A stretch of DNA of 64,000 nucleotides, from positions 1 to 64,000 of the forward strand of contig JAAEOK010000081.1 in assembly GCA_024244705.1 (NCBI GenBank), in the 5' to 3' direction. Numbering within the stretch: the stretch's first letter is position 1; every line of letters starts with the position of its first letter. A program made the translations under genes and the position numbers. Below, piece by piece: positions 314 to 10,530 of this stretch. The DNA is from Alphaproteobacteria bacterium. Lineage in GTDB: Bacteria; Pseudomonadota; Alphaproteobacteria; JAAEOK01. The notes under the pieces are model-generated. The model worked only from the letters and a program-made list of their open reading frames with translations. It searched no databases and was not told the DNA's origin.

Positions 314-1162
314 TCACGGCGACCGCACGCATTGGATCGCGTAGTAGACTTTGACCCGAACGATGCCCGGATTGTTAGGACGGACTACCCCTTGGTTGTC
401 GGGCTGGGGCTCGCATGTCCACACCGTGTTGAGGGCGCGGAACGGCGCCTTGGCGCAGCCCGTCGCGCACGGCACGCTCTGGTCATGGAGCGTCGCCAGC
501 CGCACGGCGCGTTGCACGAAGGGCTGATAATTGACCCCCTGGCAGGTCGCCACGTTTTCCGAATATTCGAACTCCGAGTTGTCGGTAGCCGGGCAGGCGA
601 CCGCGGTTGCGTCGCCGATCTCCTCGACCACGATGATCGGGCCGCTGGCCGGTCCGTTCTCGTCGTTCGGCGCCCGGGTCAGGGCACCGGCGGCCGGTGC
701 CGCCAGACCGGCCGGCTTGGCGTCCTGGGGCCGCGGACAGATCGCTTTCGTCTCCACGGCCGCGTGTGCGATCATCGGCCGGAACAGGTCGACGCACGAC
801 CAATGGCGGAAATCGATCCAGTCGTGCCTCGGCGCACAGGCCTCGGGGCAGGTCACGCGCTGGGTCTGAAATCTGGCCGAGGCGAGCGCGCGATCGTAGA
901 GGTCGGTGTAGTCGTAGCCGGCGCAGGCAAAGACCTGTTGGCGCACCGTCGCCCGGCCGGAATAGGTCTGACCGCAAACCCCCACCGTCGGCGGCAGCCG
1001 CGACTGGTCGTAGGTGACGCCCCGCTTGACGTTCGTCGGCGTCGTCCCGCCGCTATTTCCGGGCTTGGTGTAGTCGACCGCACAGGCCGACAGAATCAAC
1101 GCAACGAATAAAACCGAAGCGATTCGATGCGTGGATGCGCGTTCATGGTGCCATTGTGTCAT
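314..1162 (-). CDS. Cysteine-rich lipoprotein with duplicated domain
   Basis: A 282-residue predicted outer-membrane or periplasmic lipoprotein. The N-terminus has a basic stretch, a hydrophobic segment and a lipobox (LSAC, Cys at about residue 27). The mature part contains two copies of one module, at about residues 62-122 and 188-250. Each has the order VC/AC, a second Cys about 17-20 residues later, G.(D/N)Y, a helix rich in Ala/Arg, a V(T/P)C...C pair, and a final 'W(S/T)C'. The regular cysteine spacing suggests disulfide-bonded repeats exposed to the periplasm. I do not recognise a family. A GAGG ribosome site lies about 9 bases before the ATG. It is divergent from the M24 gene. Confidence 0.65.
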   Translation of the reverse strand: MTQWHHERASTHRIASVLFVALILSACAVDYTKPGNSGGTTPTNVKRGVTYDQSRLPPTVGVCGQTYSGRATVRQQVFACAGYDYTDLYDRALASARFQTQRVTCPEACAPRHDWIDFRHWSCVDLFRPMIAHAAVETKAICPRPQDAKPAGLAAPAAGALTRAPNDENGPASGPIIVVEEIGDATAVACPATDNSEFEYSENVATCQGVNYQPFVQRAVRLATLHDQSVPCATGCAKAPFRALNTVWTCEPQPDNQGVVRPNNPGIVRVKVYYAIQCVRSP

Positions 1163-1418: not shown

Positions 1419-2699
1419 ATGGCCTCGCGGTATGTCGCGGCGGCGGCCCGGAAAAGGCGATCACCGGTGAATTGGGCGTCCGCAGACCAAGCGTTTCTCG
1501 ACGGCGACTGGAGCGACCTGCGTCGCGACCGGGAGATCCCGGAAATCGATTTCGACCGGCTCCGCGCCTATCGCATGGCGCGAATCAAGACGTGCCTGCT
1601 TGATGCCGGGGCTGCGATGTGCGTGCTGGTAAATCCCATCAGCCTGCGTTATGCGGTCGACCATCGCACCTATGCGCTCTTTCAATCGCACATCCCGACG
1701 ACCTATTTGTTCGTGCCGGTCGAGGGCCCGGTCGTCATTCACGGCGCCTATGGCCCGTCACCCAATGCCGACGTGGCACGGCAGCCGCGACCCCTATCGT
1801 ATTTCGATGGCGGCGACGGGCTGGCCGAAGGGGCGCGGCTGCTGGCCGACGACATCGTGGCCTATCTCGACGAACTCGGCACCGACAACCGCCGGATCGC
1901 CGTGGAATATGTCAACCCGAGCCTTACCCAGGCGCTCCTGCAGCGCGGGCTGGAGGTCATCGACGGGGTCGCGGTGGCGGAACAGGCCCGGGTCATCAAA
2001 TCGGCAGACGAGATCGCCTGTATGCGGCTGGCCATTACGGTGGCGGAACGCGGCCTCGCCAGATTAAGCGAGGTTTTGAAACCGGGCATCACCGAGCTCG
2101 AGTTGTTGGCGCTGCTCAACCACATCAACATCGTCAGCAACGGGGACTGGCAGGATGGGCGCATGGTCGCCTCCGGTCCGCGCATCAACCCGTGGTGTCA
2201 GGAGGCCTCCGAGCGGCGCATCGAATCGGGCGATCTGGTCGGAGTCGACACCGATCTGATCGGCCCGTTCGGATATTTCGCCGATATATCGCGGACGTTT
2301 CACTGTGGGCCGGAGAAACCCACGTCGAGGCAGAAGCAGTTGTACCGGCTGGCGCTCGCCGAAATCGAACACAACCTGAAACTCGTCCGGCCCGGCATCG
2401 CGTTTAGCGAATTTCAGAAACGCGCCCTGGTCCAGCCCGAGGAGTTTCATCAAAACGCCTATACCTGCGTCATTCACGGCGCCGGCATGTGCGACGAGTA
2501 TCCGCGCGTCAATCCGGTCTTTCGCGGACCGACGCCGTATGACGGCACGATCGAAAAGGACATGGTGATCTGTGTCGAGAGCTATGTCGGCGCGGTCGGC
2601 GAGCGCGACGGCGTCAAGCTCGAGCAACAGGTGCTGGTGACCGAAGACGGTTACGAATTGCTGTCGACATTTCCGCTCGACGAGAGGTTGCTCGATTGA
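1419..2699 (+). CDS. M24-family (DddP-like) metalloenzyme, possible DMSP lyase
   Basis: A 426-residue pita-bread-fold protein of the M24 peptidase superfamily: an N-terminal creatinase-like domain (about residues 35-180) and a C-terminal catalytic domain. Counting from the ATG at 1419, the metal ligands are Asp277, Asp279, Asp289, His353, Glu387 and Glu402. The spacing matches what I recall for DddP dimethylsulfoniopropionate lyases (D295, D297, D307, H371, E406, E421). The DddP catalytic Asp and a nearby Tyr also have counterparts (Asp359 in HGAGMCDE, Tyr348). DddP cleaves DMSP to DMS and acrylate. Motifs GPRINPW and KLEQQVLVTEDGYE also fit. An in-frame TTG at 1389 is a less likely start. 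A different M24-like lyase or peptidase remains possible; no other DMSP gene is adjacent. Confidence 0.7.
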   Translation: MASRYVAAAARKRRSPVNWASADQAFLDGDWSDLRRDREIPEIDFDRLRAYRMARIKTCLLDAGAAMCVLVNPISLRYAVDHRTYALFQSHIPTTYLFVPVEGPVVIHGAYGPSPNADVARQPRPLSYFDGGDGLAEGARLLADDIVAYLDELGTDNRRIAVEYVNPSLTQALLQRGLEVIDGVAVAEQARVIKSADEIACMRLAITVAERGLARLSEVLKPGITELELLALLNHINIVSNGDWQDGRMVASGPRINPWCQEASERRIESGDLVGVDTDLIGPFGYFADISRTFHCGPEKPTSRQKQLYRLALAEIEHNLKLVRPGIAFSEFQKRALVQPEEFHQNAYTCVIHGAGMCDEYPRVNPVFRGPTPYDGTIEKDMVICVESYVGAVGERDGVKLEQQVLVTEDGYELLSTFPLDERLLD

Positions 2700-2878: not shown

Positions 2879-3433
2879 CTATTCTTGCCCTTCGAGCTCG
2901 GTCAGAAAGCCTAATCGAGGTCGGAAATATGCAGTGTAATAAAGATCGAAATCGCCGACGTTCGAAAACATGAGCGGCCTGAATTGATAATAGATTTCGG
3001 CGATTATAACGCTTTCTCCGTCTCGGATGATCAGTCCGGAAGGCAACGTGGCTTCGTCATCGGGCGCCCCGATGTGACTGCTGGCCGTGAGCTGCCCGGC
3101 CCCGGATTGTTGCCAATTAACCATCGGAGCCCCGCCGCCGGTAGCTCCAACTGAACTCAGCAGCACAACCCCATCCCCACCCAATTCGAACGGCTGCATC
3201 ACGAACTGGACCGCGTTCATGAGATCGTTTACTTGGTCTACCGAGATTGTTTCGCCGACAGAAACGAGATCGGCCAACGTTACGACGGCCCTGTCGAGCT
3301 TTTGATTCAGCAAGACGAAGCGGGCGATCTCGACCACACCGAGAATCATTGTCATAAGGAGGATCATCACAAAGCCGGTCTCGACGAGTGCAACGCCGCG
3401 GCCGTCATTCGCGAACCGGCGAAATACGGTCAA
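2879..3433 (-). CDS. TadE-like minor pilin / pilus assembly protein
   Basis: A 184-residue protein with the TadE/TadG N-terminal layout: a short basic leader (about residues 1-13, FANDGRGV), then a conserved Glu in 'ALVETGFV' at the start of one long hydrophobic helix (about residues 14-44, including VVEIARFVLLNQ). The rest is extracytoplasmic with no recognised domain. Such proteins are inner-membrane pseudopilins or minor components of Flp/Tad pili. It overlaps the upstream TadE-like gene by four bases (ATGA at 3430-3433), so the two are probably translationally coupled. No Tad ATPase, secretin or flp pilin gene lies in the window. Confidence 0.75.
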   Translation of the reverse strand: MTVFRRFANDGRGVALVETGFVMILLMTMILGVVEIARFVLLNQKLDRAVVTLADLVSVGETISVDQVNDLMNAVQFVMQPFELGGDGVVLLSSVGATGGGAPMVNWQQSGAGQLTASSHIGAPDDEATLPSGLIIRDGESVIIAEIYYQFRPLMFSNVGDFDLYYTAYFRPRLGFLTELEGQE

Positions 3434-4029
3434 GCGCCTTCCTCCTCTACGGGTTCCGGATAAGGTTCATTGCGAACGGCGAGGCTGGCGCGTAATGGTA
3501 TCTTTCCGTTTTCTCCGGCGAAGAGCCCAAACAGGGGGGTCATGAACTCCCATTCCGCGTTGATCGTGTAGAGAACGATTGACCCGGGACCACCAAGACC
3601 CGCCGCGCCCATGTCCGCATCCCATTGACCATTGCCGTTGATGTCGATGTAGGACTCTTCCCCGTTCTGGATACCGTTGTCGTCGTCGTCTTCGAATGGC
3701 TCCGGTTTTCCGATATCGTCGAAACTCGGATACACGTAGGTCGTCAGATGCGCGTCATCGATTGTGATAAGCCCTCCGGCAGCCTCAGCGACGGTATCGA
3801 TCACCATCTCCTCACGCGTCGTGCCTTCAGGAAGATAGCCGGTGATGCCAAATCGCGATGCTTGGCGCAGCCCGCCTTCCATGAGGACGGTGACGAAGAG
3901 AATCAGGGATATTTCCATGATACCGATCATGGCAAGAAACAGCGCCGGTGCGACAAGTCCGAATTCAACCAGAGCGTGGCCCCGGCCGCATCGAGCGATC
4001 GCTCGCAAGCGATTTAGATGTCTACCCAT
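3430..4029 (-). CDS. TadE-family protein with Asp/Asn-rich calcium-like loops
   Basis: A 199-residue TadE-type protein. The leader 'CGRGHALVEFGLV' precedes a hydrophobic helix at about residues 20-50 (ALFLAMIGIMEISLILFVTVL), the standard TadE signature with Glu five residues into the hydrophobic stretch. The extracytoplasmic part carries an acidic insertion at residues 114-139 with two D/N/G-rich loops (DDDDNGIQNGEE and DINGNGQWDAD) that resemble the calcium-binding loops of EF-hand, dockerin or thrombospondin type 3 repeats. That is unusual for TadE. It is the first gene of a two-gene minus-strand operon and is divergent from the TadG/VWA gene across an AT-rich spacer. Confidence 0.75.
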   Translation of the reverse strand: MGRHLNRLRAIARCGRGHALVEFGLVAPALFLAMIGIMEISLILFVTVLMEGGLRQASRFGITGYLPEGTTREEMVIDTVAEAAGGLITIDDAHLTTYVYPSFDDIGKPEPFEDDDDNGIQNGEESYIDINGNGQWDADMGAAGLGGPGSIVLYTINAEWEFMTPLFGLFAGENGKIPLRASLAVRNEPYPEPVEEEGA

Positions 4030-4395
4030 TGTTAACTACACCCAACCCGTGCCGGTACTTGGCAACGTCATGAACCGGCGAATTACCGAACTGAACATCG
4101 AATACGACGCCGCTTCGAGCCAGTCCTCCCAAACTTGCCGGAATTGCGCCGGCAAATAAACAAAACCATAAAATACCCACGACGTTAATAACTACCTAAA
4201 ATTCATAAATATTTATACAACTTTTCTCTATTTTTTTGTTTATTATTTGAAATCATGTTCTCCTATACTCTCTTAATATATATTTTACATTCTACCGCTA
4301 TTCAAGGGCGAAGTCGTCAGCGAAGACCGGCGATTAACCTTGATTGTATTTGAGCTCGAAAAACATTAAGGGGCAATTAAATCGGGAAGAAAAAG
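4030..4395. promoter_or_regulatory. AT-rich divergent promoter region of the tad genes
   Basis: This 366-base spacer separates the two divergent TadE/TadG-like transcription units. Its central part is extremely AT-rich compared with the surroundings: positions 4201-4260 contain only 10 G or C in 60. It contains several TTAA-containing sequences and a TATACT-like hexamer near 4264, but no -35/-10 pair with good spacing was identified. No gene is seen. The composition suggests a promoter region that melts easily or binds a nucleoid-associated silencer; this is inference. Confidence 0.5.
4366..4380 (+). promoter_or_regulatory. CtrA-like box (TTAA-N7-TTAA)
   Basis: The sequence TTAAGGGGCAATTAA matches the CtrA full-site consensus TTAA-N7-TTAA exactly in spacing. 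It ends 15 bases before the ATG of the TadG-like gene. In Caulobacter, Flp pilin expression depends on CtrA, so the context fits. The site is close to the start codon, which would suit repression or a very short leader. A further TTAACC half site lies near 4334. Confidence 0.4.
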
Positions 4396-5859
4396 ATGAT
4401 TCGGACCTATAGGTGGCTAGTAGGGAAATCACACGAACTCGCAAGAGATCGCAGTGGTGTCTCCTTTCTTCTTCTTGCTCTCACCCTGGTTCCCTTGATC
4501 GGCTTGATGGGGTTGGCGATTGACCTTGGTCGGGGTTATTTGCTGAAATCACAGCTTTCAAGCGCCCTCGACGCGGCCGGTCTCGCCGGCGGCAAGGTCA
4601 TCTTTTCCGACACGCTCGGAGCGGACATCCAAATGTTCTTTGACGCTAACCTGCCGCCCGGCTACATGACAGCCAGTATCGATGGGCCATTTTTTGAGGT
4701 CTCCGAGGACAACGAAGTCATCCAATTGAACGCGACCGCGACGGTCAACACCACATTCATGCGTGTGCTCGGCATTCCGACGATGACCGTTGCCGCGTTT
4801 ACCGAGGTGACCCGTCGCACTCAACTGCTCGATCTGGTGCTCGCCGTCGACATGTCGACGTCGATGACCTGGGACGACGGCACCGGTACGGGCACGTCAC
4901 GAATTCAAGCCGCACGCTCGGCTGCGACCGAACTTGTCAATATCCTATTCGGCGATGACCCCGACAAGCCGTTCCTCAACATGGCTGTCGCACCCTGGGC
5001 GGGTAAAACCAATGTGACAATCGACGGTGTCGCTTTTACCGGTTCGACGTCGTCTGTCGTACCGGAGTTCACGAATCCGGTAACCGGGGCTGATCAGACC
5101 CTTGTCTATTACGCAAACAACTCGCCCGTTCCGTTTCTGAGCGCGCCGCCGGCCAACTGGCAGGGCTGTGTCTATGCGCGCTATCTCGATGACGGAGATG
5201 CTGACAACGATGCCGACCTCTACTACGGCCCGGTCGACCGGAACGGCACGGAATGGATGGCGTGGCAGCCGATCGGACCGGAGGGTGAACCCGTACCGGG
5301 ACCCTCCAACTGCACTGGACATGTTCCGGGCGACTGGACGGATTGCCGCGCGTGTATTGATCATGGCATCACGCCATTGGATAACACCAAGCAGACAATG
5401 CTCGATGCAGTCAGTGGATTGACCAGCCCAGTCGGCGTCACGAACATAGTTGGCGGACTTTTCTGGGCGTGGCATGTGCTGAAACCGGAGGCTCCGTTCA
5501 CCGAGGCCAACCCCGACCCGGATTTCCCGCGGCAGCAGGCGATCATCCTGCTTACGGACGGCGAACATCAGGGCGGTTCCGGCGATGCCTATAACGCCGT
5601 CTTTGGGCTTGGCACATCTGCCGGCGCCGGCGGAATGGATCCCCGACTTACCGAGCTCGCAACCCGAATCAAGGCCGAAGGTGTTCTGATCTATGTCGTT
5701 CAGTTCCGCTACAATAGCGGCACGTTGGCCACCCTTCTGCAGGGAGTTGCGACGAGCCCGGATTCGCCTTATTACAACTTTGCTCCCGATGGGGACGCCC
5801 TCGCCGAAATCTTCCAGGAAGTCGCGAACCACCTGTCCGAGCTGCGGCTATCACGGTAA
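4396..5859 (+). CDS. TadG-like pilus assembly protein with von Willebrand factor A domain
   Basis: A 487-residue protein. An N-terminal basic segment (RDRSGVS) precedes a hydrophobic helix at about residues 22-50 (LTLVPLIGLMGLAIDLGRGY), followed by 'SALDAAGLAGG', the TadE/TadG signature. A VWA domain starts at about residue 150, with the metal-ion-dependent adhesion motif DMSTSMT and a later 'ILLTDGEHQGG' strand. TadG proteins are envelope-anchored parts of the Flp/Tad pilus system, and the VWA domain probably binds a partner through Mg2+. The central region has several Cys residues (NWQGC, SNCTG, DCRACID) that may form disulfides. A GGGAAG ribosome site lies about 9 bases before the ATG. Confidence 0.85.
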   Translation: MIRTYRWLVGKSHELARDRSGVSFLLLALTLVPLIGLMGLAIDLGRGYLLKSQLSSALDAAGLAGGKVIFSDTLGADIQMFFDANLPPGYMTASIDGPFFEVSEDNEVIQLNATATVNTTFMRVLGIPTMTVAAFTEVTRRTQLLDLVLAVDMSTSMTWDDGTGTGTSRIQAARSAATELVNILFGDDPDKPFLNMAVAPWAGKTNVTIDGVAFTGSTSSVVPEFTNPVTGADQTLVYYANNSPVPFLSAPPANWQGCVYARYLDDGDADNDADLYYGPVDRNGTEWMAWQPIGPEGEPVPGPSNCTGHVPGDWTDCRACIDHGITPLDNTKQTMLDAVSGLTSPVGVTNIVGGLFWAWHVLKPEAPFTEANPDPDFPRQQAIILLTDGEHQGGSGDAYNAVFGLGTSAGAGGMDPRLTELATRIKAEGVLIYVVQFRYNSGTLATLLQGVATSPDSPYYNFAPDGDALAEIFQEVANHLSELRLSR

Positions 5860-9015: not shown

Positions 9016-9969
9016 TCAATTGGGATAGGGAAGCGCGGGAATGTAATCGCTGCTCTCGGACGGCGTCGTGCTGGCCGGGGCGTCGATTTCACCGGCCTCC
9101 TCGAAAAGCCAATTCCGGAACGCCGCGATCTTCGGCCGATTGATCCAACTTTTCGGGCAGGTTACCGAATAGATGACCTTGGGCTCCGTCTCGAACTCGA
9201 ACAGCTTTACCAAGACGCCCTGGGCGATTTCGTCGGCGACGAGCGCCTTGTAGGCGAGGGCGATGCCCTGTCCCTGCTCGGCCGCCCGCAGGCTGAGGTC
9301 GCAGTGCTCGAAATGTGGTCCTTGTGGCGGCTTCGCACAGTGAACGCCGGCGCGTTCGAACCAGTCATCCCAGCCATCGCCGACAACATCCCGCAACAAT
9401 GTATGGCGCAGAATGTCATCGGGGTCTTGGATCGGCGGCGCGCCTTCGAGCATTTTCGGGCTGCACACGGGTACGCGAGACGACGACAAGAAGGAGTCCA
9501 CCCGCAAACCCGAAGCCGACGCCTGTCCGTATTGGAGCAGGACATCGACGTCGTCCTTACGGAAGTCCGTCGTCGCGATGGTCGTCGTTATGCAGAGCTC
9601 GATATCGGGATAGGCGGAATTGAATCGGTTCAATTTCGGCACCAGCCAGCGCGCCGCGAACGCTGGCGTCGAGCGGACATTCAGCGGGCCGTCGGTTTCG
9701 CAGTCCCTTCTGCGACGGGTGCTGGCGTCCAGTTGGTCGAGGATCGAGGTGACATCATCAAAATACGCGCGTCCGGTGGGCGTCAGGCCGACCCCCTTGT
9801 TGCCGCGGTGAAACAGGGCAGAGCCCAGAAACTCTTCCAGCGCCTTGACCTGATGGCTGATGGCGGATTGGGTGACGTTGAGTTCTTCCGCCGCGTCCTT
9901 GAAGCTCGAATACCTGGCGGCAGATTCGAAGGCGCGGACGGCTGTGAACGGCGGTAACGTTCGTTTCAC
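9016..9969 (-). CDS. LysR-family regulator, GcvA-like
   Basis: A 317-residue transcription factor. The N-terminal winged helix-turn-helix (residues 1-65) starts 'LPPFTAVRAFESAARYSSFKDA' and includes NVTQSAISHQVKALEEFLG, typical of GcvA-type LysR proteins. The substrate-binding domain begins near residue 92 (PLNVRSTPAFAARWLVP). GcvA-like regulators usually control an adjacent divergent gene. Here the divergent neighbour is the small cupin gene starting at 10075, about 105 bases away, so that gene is the likely target. The effector is unknown. Confidence 0.88.
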   Translation of the reverse strand: MKRTLPPFTAVRAFESAARYSSFKDAAEELNVTQSAISHQVKALEEFLGSALFHRGNKGVGLTPTGRAYFDDVTSILDQLDASTRRRRDCETDGPLNVRSTPAFAARWLVPKLNRFNSAYPDIELCITTTIATTDFRKDDVDVLLQYGQASASGLRVDSFLSSSRVPVCSPKMLEGAPPIQDPDDILRHTLLRDVVGDGWDDWFERAGVHCAKPPQGPHFEHCDLSLRAAEQGQGIALAYKALVADEIAQGVLVKLFEFETEPKVIYSVTCPKSWINRPKIAAFRNWLFEEAGEIDAPASTTPSESSDYIPALPYPN

Positions 9970-10074
9970 CCGAAATGAATCCTGCTCATGTGGACATTAG
10001 ATAGGATCGTTTGCCAGTCCACCGATCGCGATTCTACCCTACTTCGCAACATCAACCAAGCGAGGGGCGTCAAG

Positions 10075-10530
10075 ATGGGTATCGCAAATGGTCACAAGCG
10101 TCGATTCGGCTATTGCATGGTCGTCGTTTTCTCCGTCGCTACGGGAATCGCTTTGGGCGTCGCCGGCACTCAGAGCATCGCCGAAATGGCTGCTCCCAGC
10201 GAGCACAAGGGGCTTCAGGTCGATGCCCTCGGTGTCATACCCGAGACCTCCATGGACGCGCAGATCGGGTTAACCGGGTACAAGTTGCAACTACGCGAAA
10301 TCACGATCGAGCCCGGCGGGCAAATCGCCAAGCACGGTCATGAGACGCGGCCCGGCCTGGTCAAGGTGATCGACGGGACCTGGGTCGAGGGCCGTCCCTC
10401 CGGTGAAACCGCGTACAAGGCTTCCGATCCAAACGGCATCCTTGAAGACGAGGTGACAATCCATTGGTTTTGGAACCGTGGCGACACGCCGGCGACCGCG
10501 ATCGTTTGCGACATCGTGCCGGCAAGCTAA
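10075..10530 (+). CDS. Exported or anchored cupin-domain protein
   Basis: A 151-residue protein with an N-terminal basic segment and a hydrophobic helix (residues 11-32, YCMVVVFSVATGIALGVAG) that acts as signal or anchor. The rest is a single cupin barrel: LREITIEPGGQIAKHGHETRPG contains the metal-binding His pair of cupin motif 1 (G..KHGH) and IHWFWNRGDTPATAIVCDI corresponds to motif 2. The ATG at 10075 is chosen because a GAGGGG ribosome site lies just upstream; the in-frame ATG at 9988 would add a non-signal extension. It is divergent from the GcvA-like regulator, which may control it. Enzymatic role unknown. Confidence 0.75.
   Translation: MGIANGHKRRFGYCMVVVFSVATGIALGVAGTQSIAEMAAPSEHKGLQVDALGVIPETSMDAQIGLTGYKLQLREITIEPGGQIAKHGHETRPGLVKVIDGTWVEGRPSGETAYKASDPNGILEDEVTIHWFWNRGDTPATAIVCDIVPAS

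Follow-up and report, generated by a model that had tools for sequence, protein, structure and literature searches.

DddP is a DMSP lyase with the "pita-bread" M24 fold, and because dddP reportedly accounts for about 65% of the ddd genes in ocean surveys, its recognition matters (PMC10686828). For RdDddP, roles have been assigned to Tyr366 and to Asp377, the latter being the catalytic Asp, and the metal site includes a sixth ligand, of the Asp297 type, that is not found in methionine aminopeptidases (PMC4108388) and that M24 peptidases are said to lack (PMC4108388; PMC5395565). According to a review, the DMSP sulfur is bound by a tryptophan and a tyrosine (PMC5395565). One field study accepts DddP homologs at 40% identity or more (PMC6309047). 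The dddP primer motifs FYF and GEWI are reported to be shared by every known DddP group (PMC4304780). Active DMSP lyases have also been described that are distinct from classical DddP, namely Oceanimonas DddP2 and the scallop symbiont DddP (PMC10989825).

Here, we analyze a stretch of 64,000 nucleotides from the genome of an alphaproteobacterium (contig JAAEOK010000081.1), hereafter the window, which carries an M24 gene close to its left end. A first-pass annotation had noted in the product of this gene the complete set of DddP-type metal ligands and catalytic residues and had read this set as a sign that the cell can cleave DMSP to DMS.

The window gene and its surroundings

The M24-fold protein is full-length and is encoded on the plus strand in a frame that is open over positions 1284–2699 of the window. 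Translation from ATG 1419 yields 426 aa, and no ribosome-binding site is visible upstream of this codon. A start at GTG 1467 yields a product of 410 aa and is favored both by this length, which matches that of the orthologs (408–414 aa, with 408 aa in Nitratireductor), and by the presence of GGAAAAGG at 1450–1457. The gene probably starts at GTG 1467 instead of ATG 1419 and would then span 1467–2699. Residue numbers given here count from ATG 1419, and each drops by 16 if the start is moved. The features of the region are as follows.

1467–2699, plus strand: DddP-like M24 gene, 410 aa from the probable GTG start; alternative starts at ATG 1419 and, further upstream, TTG 1389
1450–1457, plus strand: putative ribosome-binding site GGAAAAGG, located 9 bases upstream of GTG 1467, as read from the sequence
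1680–1682, plus strand: codon of Phe88, in the place of RlDddP Trp95 (motif LFQSHIP, versus LWNTHNP in RlDddP)
2247–2255, plus strand: codons of Asp277 and Asp279, equivalent to RlDddP Asp295 and Asp297, with Asp297 being the sixth ligand
2283–2285, plus strand: codon of the metal ligand Asp289, equivalent to RlDddP Asp307
2460–2495, plus strand: codons of Tyr348 (2460–2462), His353 (2475–2477), and Asp359 (2493–2495)
2577–2579, plus strand: codon of the metal ligand Glu387, equivalent to RlDddP Glu406
2622–2624, plus strand: codon of the metal ligand Glu402, equivalent to RlDddP Glu421
314–1162, minus strand: divergent neighbor, a secreted-protein-like ORF (family by sequence judgement only)
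2879–4029, minus strand: two convergent TadE-like ORFs (family assigned in the same way)

Since the ORF at 314–1162 is divergent, the M24 gene shares no operon with its left side, and with the convergent TadE-like ORFs on its right, it is probably transcribed alone, as a single-gene transcription unit. The window begins at the end of the contig (C81), and thus, the view further upstream stops there. To the right, the two TadE-like ORFs on the minus strand and a TadG/von Willebrand-like ORF on the plus strand (together 2879–5859) resemble pilus-type proteins, while at 9016–10530, a GcvA-like LysR regulator and a small secreted cupin-like ORF are arranged divergently; these names, too, come from the sequence by itself.

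Active site of the window protein

The window protein scores 104.6 bits against Pfam Peptidase_M24, and its best PDB match by sequence is RlDddP (4rzy; phmmer E 1.1e-67). In the alignment to this structure, Asp277/Asp279/Asp289/His353/Glu387/Glu402 correspond to Asp295/Asp297/Asp307/His371/Glu406/Glu421, whereas Tyr348 corresponds to Tyr366 and Asp359 to the catalytic Asp377. The residues that the first-pass annotation had given for DddP are the same as the published RdDddP set (PMC4108388), and all eight positions that it had listed (six ligands, one Tyr, and the catalytic Asp) are confirmed under its own numbering.

A structural model points the same way. When an AlphaFold model of the monomer (pLDDT 85, pTM 0.85) was used for a structure search, the DddP crystal structures 4s01/4s00/4rzy/4b28 came first (E about 1e-43, TM 0.85–0.86), with prolidases far behind (E about 1e-23, TM about 0.65) and creatinase and DoeA also at a TM of about 0.65. 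In the overlay on DddP that had been suggested as a check, the best TM is 0.86. The window protein has the M24 fold, a complete metal and catalytic set, and an active site of the DddP type rather than the prolidase type, and the match to DddP in residues and fold is not due to chance. With DddP (RlDddP 4rzy/4s01, RdDddP 4b28; NF043017), it has in common the "pita-bread" fold, the six ligands, the Asp, the Tyr, and the N-terminal domain.

Distribution of the residue set among DddP-like proteins

Our sample of 112 DddP-like proteins was drawn from the genome that carries the window, from its class, and from named genomes. The six metal ligands are kept in 105 of the 112, and the ligands together with the Tyr and the Asp are kept in 89, which are found across many paralogous branches; Trp95 is missing in 33 of these 89. 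The M24 outgroup rows, which are creatinase/DoeA-like, aligned poorly at the ligand columns and were left out of the judgement on the sixth ligand. The full residue set is a hallmark of the entire DddP-like superfamily and not of DddP, and with 89/112 relatives having it, the combination of six metals, Asp, and Tyr is ruled out as proof of DddP. On metal and catalytic residues alone, DddP is not separable from its many relatives, and five genes of this kind can coexist in one genome, with one of them resembling DddP. A simple sorting rule is obtained by combining Trp95 with the model cut-off and gene context.

Departures from the set also occur. In five DddP-like proteins (L125, L140, L122, the second copy of L062, and L031), the Asp377 equivalent is replaced by Asn, Gly, Val, or Phe, and one of the five also lacks Tyr366; these proteins probably perform other chemistry or are inactive. 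Tandem DddP-like M24 pairs in which both copies are of the Trp95 type are found at G034:C10:140061-142615 and G260:C1:1598724-1601139.

Placement of the window protein relative to DddP

When compared to DddP itself, the window protein falls short on several measures. It scores 269 bits against the NCBIfam DddP model NF043017, versus an equivalog cut-off of 600, and its identity to RlDddP, the sole ratified DddP row in our alignment, is 34.2% over 383 columns, which does not reach the 40% rule (PMC6309047). Both primer motifs are absent from it, with SYF in place of FYF and GDWQ in place of GEWI. A further difference is at site 95, where all DddP-core proteins (15/15) and all above-cut-off DddPs (33/33) have Trp, whereas the window protein has Phe88 and its clade has Phe throughout (18/18). 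Wang et al. 2015 reportedly assign the binding of the DMSP sulfur to Trp95. Among the other DddP-conserved Trp positions, 248 and 312 are replaced by Leu230 and Phe294, respectively, while 262 and 277 are kept.

In our main phylogeny, a maximum-likelihood tree of 116 rows in which Oceanimonas DddP2 and the fungal DddPs are not among the rows, the window protein is found in an 18-row clade (SH-aLRT 99) with members that are 58–72% identical. This clade is nested in groups of 19 (98), 22 (99), and 35 rows (98), none of which contains a sequence with Trp95. RlDddP, by contrast, is found in a 15-row DddP core (98) that is nested among Trp95 proteins. A FastTree inference with 164 rows agrees, as the 36 rows around the window protein (0.999) contain no above-cut-off DddP. 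In an AU test performed with IQ-TREE on 54 rows, a topology in which the window protein joins the DddP core is rejected (delta lnL 341, p-AU 5.6e-61), and moving its whole clade to the core costs 188 lnL units (p-AU 8.7e-96). A first AU test, which used a short held-tree search, gave p 0.088 at a delta lnL of 328; because a loss of 328 units does not fit such a marginal p, we prefer the IQ-TREE test.

The first-pass annotation had named a position outside DddP, with prolidases or creatinases, as the outcome that would speak against it. The window protein is indeed outside DddP, but it is not with prolidases or creatinases, a placement that is ruled out by both the tree and the fold. It belongs to an uncharacterized group of DddP-like M24 enzymes that carry the label "Xaa-Pro peptidase family protein" (Nitratireductor, Mesorhizobium plasmids, Leucothrix, Acidiferrobacteraceae, Arenicellales MAGs), which are 58–71% identical to it, are found in the same clade, and have Phe at site 95. 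The window protein thus probably represents an orthologous group distinct from DddP, and the earlier step from a complete set to DddP is not supported, given the shared residue set, the low model score and identity, the lack of Trp95, and the position in the tree.

Gene neighborhoods of the orthologs

A genome scan recovered orthologs in Nitratireductor, Leucothrix, and gammaproteobacterial MAGs at 60–71% identity (71% for Nitratireductor), and a plasmid search recovered Mesorhizobium orthologs at 59% identity. The Nitratireductor locus includes a Dpp-type transporter, a Rieske oxygenase with GbcA (glycine betaine monooxygenase) as its nearest model, a sarcosine-oxidase/GcvT-type FAD enzyme, and an MR_MLE enzyme that is near the cis-3-hydroxyproline dehydratase model (435 bits, cut-off 500), while the Mesorhizobium plasmid locus includes ProX and a betaine ABC transporter, an MttB-family methyltransferase, GlxA regulators, and SDRs. 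In the gammaproteobacterial loci, which are mostly close kin and count as few independent cases, there is a conserved run consisting of MR_MLE genes, a PIG3-type Zn-dehydrogenase, MTTB in some, and a pipecolate-oxidase-like enzyme, together with the M24 gene, an APS kinase, an SDR, a DoeA-like M24 gene, and a Dpp transporter. The PIG3-type dehydrogenase of this run is not acuI (49 bits versus a 440-bit cut-off), and acrylate genes were not seen in any of the ortholog loci, in which respect the group differs from DddP. The setting of the orthologs is of a betaine or N-methyl-amino-acid type, and it recurs in two bacterial classes with different arrangements.

Although many members of the group are found in such betaine-type loci, the window copy stands alone. 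None of 15 betaine-operon proteins has a match in the window at E 1e-8, and the matches in its own genome to the Nitratireductor MR_MLE and Rieske genes are distant only (32–49% identical) and lie elsewhere in the genome.

DMSP lyase candidates in the same genome

The window's genome contains five DddP-like genes, i.e., the window gene and four paralogs. The paralog at C52:31586-32878 scores 570 bits against the DddP model, is 50.5% identical to RlDddP, keeps Trp95 and FYF, and is found in the DddP core clade. It belongs to the same superfamily as the window protein and has the same residue set, yet the two are only 41.3% identical. An acuI-like gene (C52:40402-41373; 410 bits, cut-off 440) is located 8 kb from this paralog (loci L001, L088, L095 for the two), and the interval holds an acyl-CoA ligase and an acyl-CoA dehydrogenase; the region is a likely DMSP cleavage cluster. 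On model score and residues, the C52 paralog is a better DddP candidate than the window gene. The genome also encodes a 218-aa cupin at C73:127260-127751 (locus L106, 1438-2094 minus) that scores 92.9 bits against Pfam DMSP_lyase (cut-off 27) and may be a further DMSP lyase, in this case a cupin-type one. As for the claim that the cell can cleave DMSP, it is not supported by the window gene but may hold by way of the C52 paralog.

Possible reactions of the window protein

We favor, as reasonably likely, the view that the window protein is a functional-looking DddP-like M24 enzyme of a separate, non-DddP group and that its substrate would most likely be a betaine-type zwitterion, i.e., a quaternary ammonium acid and not DMSP. 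By analogy with DddP, the two-metal site would hold the substrate carboxylate (PMC4108388; PMC5395565), and Asp359 would act as the base that takes the alpha proton from the alpha carbon, and the onium group would be expelled in a pocket that has Phe88 at the position of the DddP Trp. This Phe, together with the betaine-type context of the orthologs, suggests that the leaving group would be a quaternary amine. The lone window copy would then perform the same reaction as the copies in operons.

That the protein is instead a true DMSP lyase, a divergent DddP or a DddP2-type enzyme in which Asp359 would take the DMSP alpha proton and DMS would leave, we consider unlikely. Every metal and catalytic residue is kept, DddPs are the closest solved structures by sequence and by fold, there is a ratified lyase, FgDddP, with 32% identity to RdDddP (PMC4108388), and Oceanimonas DddP2 reportedly differs from most of the DddPs known so far (PMC10989825). 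Nevertheless, the score is far under the DddP model cut-off, the protein is placed outside the DddP clade, Trp95 is replaced by Phe, acrylate genes were not seen in the ortholog loci, and a better candidate exists in the same genome. It is rather unlikely that the protein is a hydrolase, not a lyase, of a betaine-pathway intermediate, although creatinase and the ectoine hydrolase DoeA are M24-fold hydrolases of C-N bonds that share with the window group both the fold and a link to osmolyte breakdown. A hydrolase would suit the betaine-type neighborhoods of the orthologs, and the DoeA-like M24 gene in the gammaproteobacterial operon can be read either way, as a sign of such chemistry or as the gene that already provides it. 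The window protein, however, keeps the Asp377/Tyr366 equivalents and the six-ligand site as in DddP. Creatinase and DoeA are remote from it (TM about 0.65, 16–19% identity) and fall far outside the DddP-like clade.

The automatic label "Xaa-Pro peptidase family protein" would make the window protein an ordinary M24B peptidase of the prolidase or aminopeptidase P type, which we regard as very unlikely. The M24 fold and the public annotation of its relatives agree with this label, but the sixth ligand Asp279 is present and the five-ligand peptidase site (PMC5395565, PMC4108388) is not matched, the TM is 0.86 to DddP versus about 0.65 to prolidases, and RlDddP has no measurable activity on Val-Pro (PMC5395565).

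The favored reading, cleavage of a betaine-type zwitterion, points to an uncharacterized betaine-linked enzyme group. A tentative and on balance doubtful extension is that the clade represents an undescribed family of betaine lyases, in which an amine would be eliminated from a quaternary-ammonium acid and the unsaturated acid would go on to the operon's own PIG3-like dehydrogenase. If true, marine gammaproteobacteria, Nitratireductor, and rhizobial plasmids would have in this family a nitrogen equivalent of the route by which DMSP is cleaved.

Two observations concern the wider setting of these genes. In nine gammaproteobacterial loci, the M24 gene is followed by an APS kinase fused to a CysN C-terminal domain, and in four, a sulfotransferase-family gene is found upstream; the loci concerned are L012:806-10287 and L011, L013, L014, L016, L018, L020, L021, L029, L032. 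It is odd to find sulfate activation combined with a betaine-type pathway in one operon. Finally, the window's genome contains ten MttB-family methyltransferase matches, which suggests a broad use of methylated amines or betaines by this organism.
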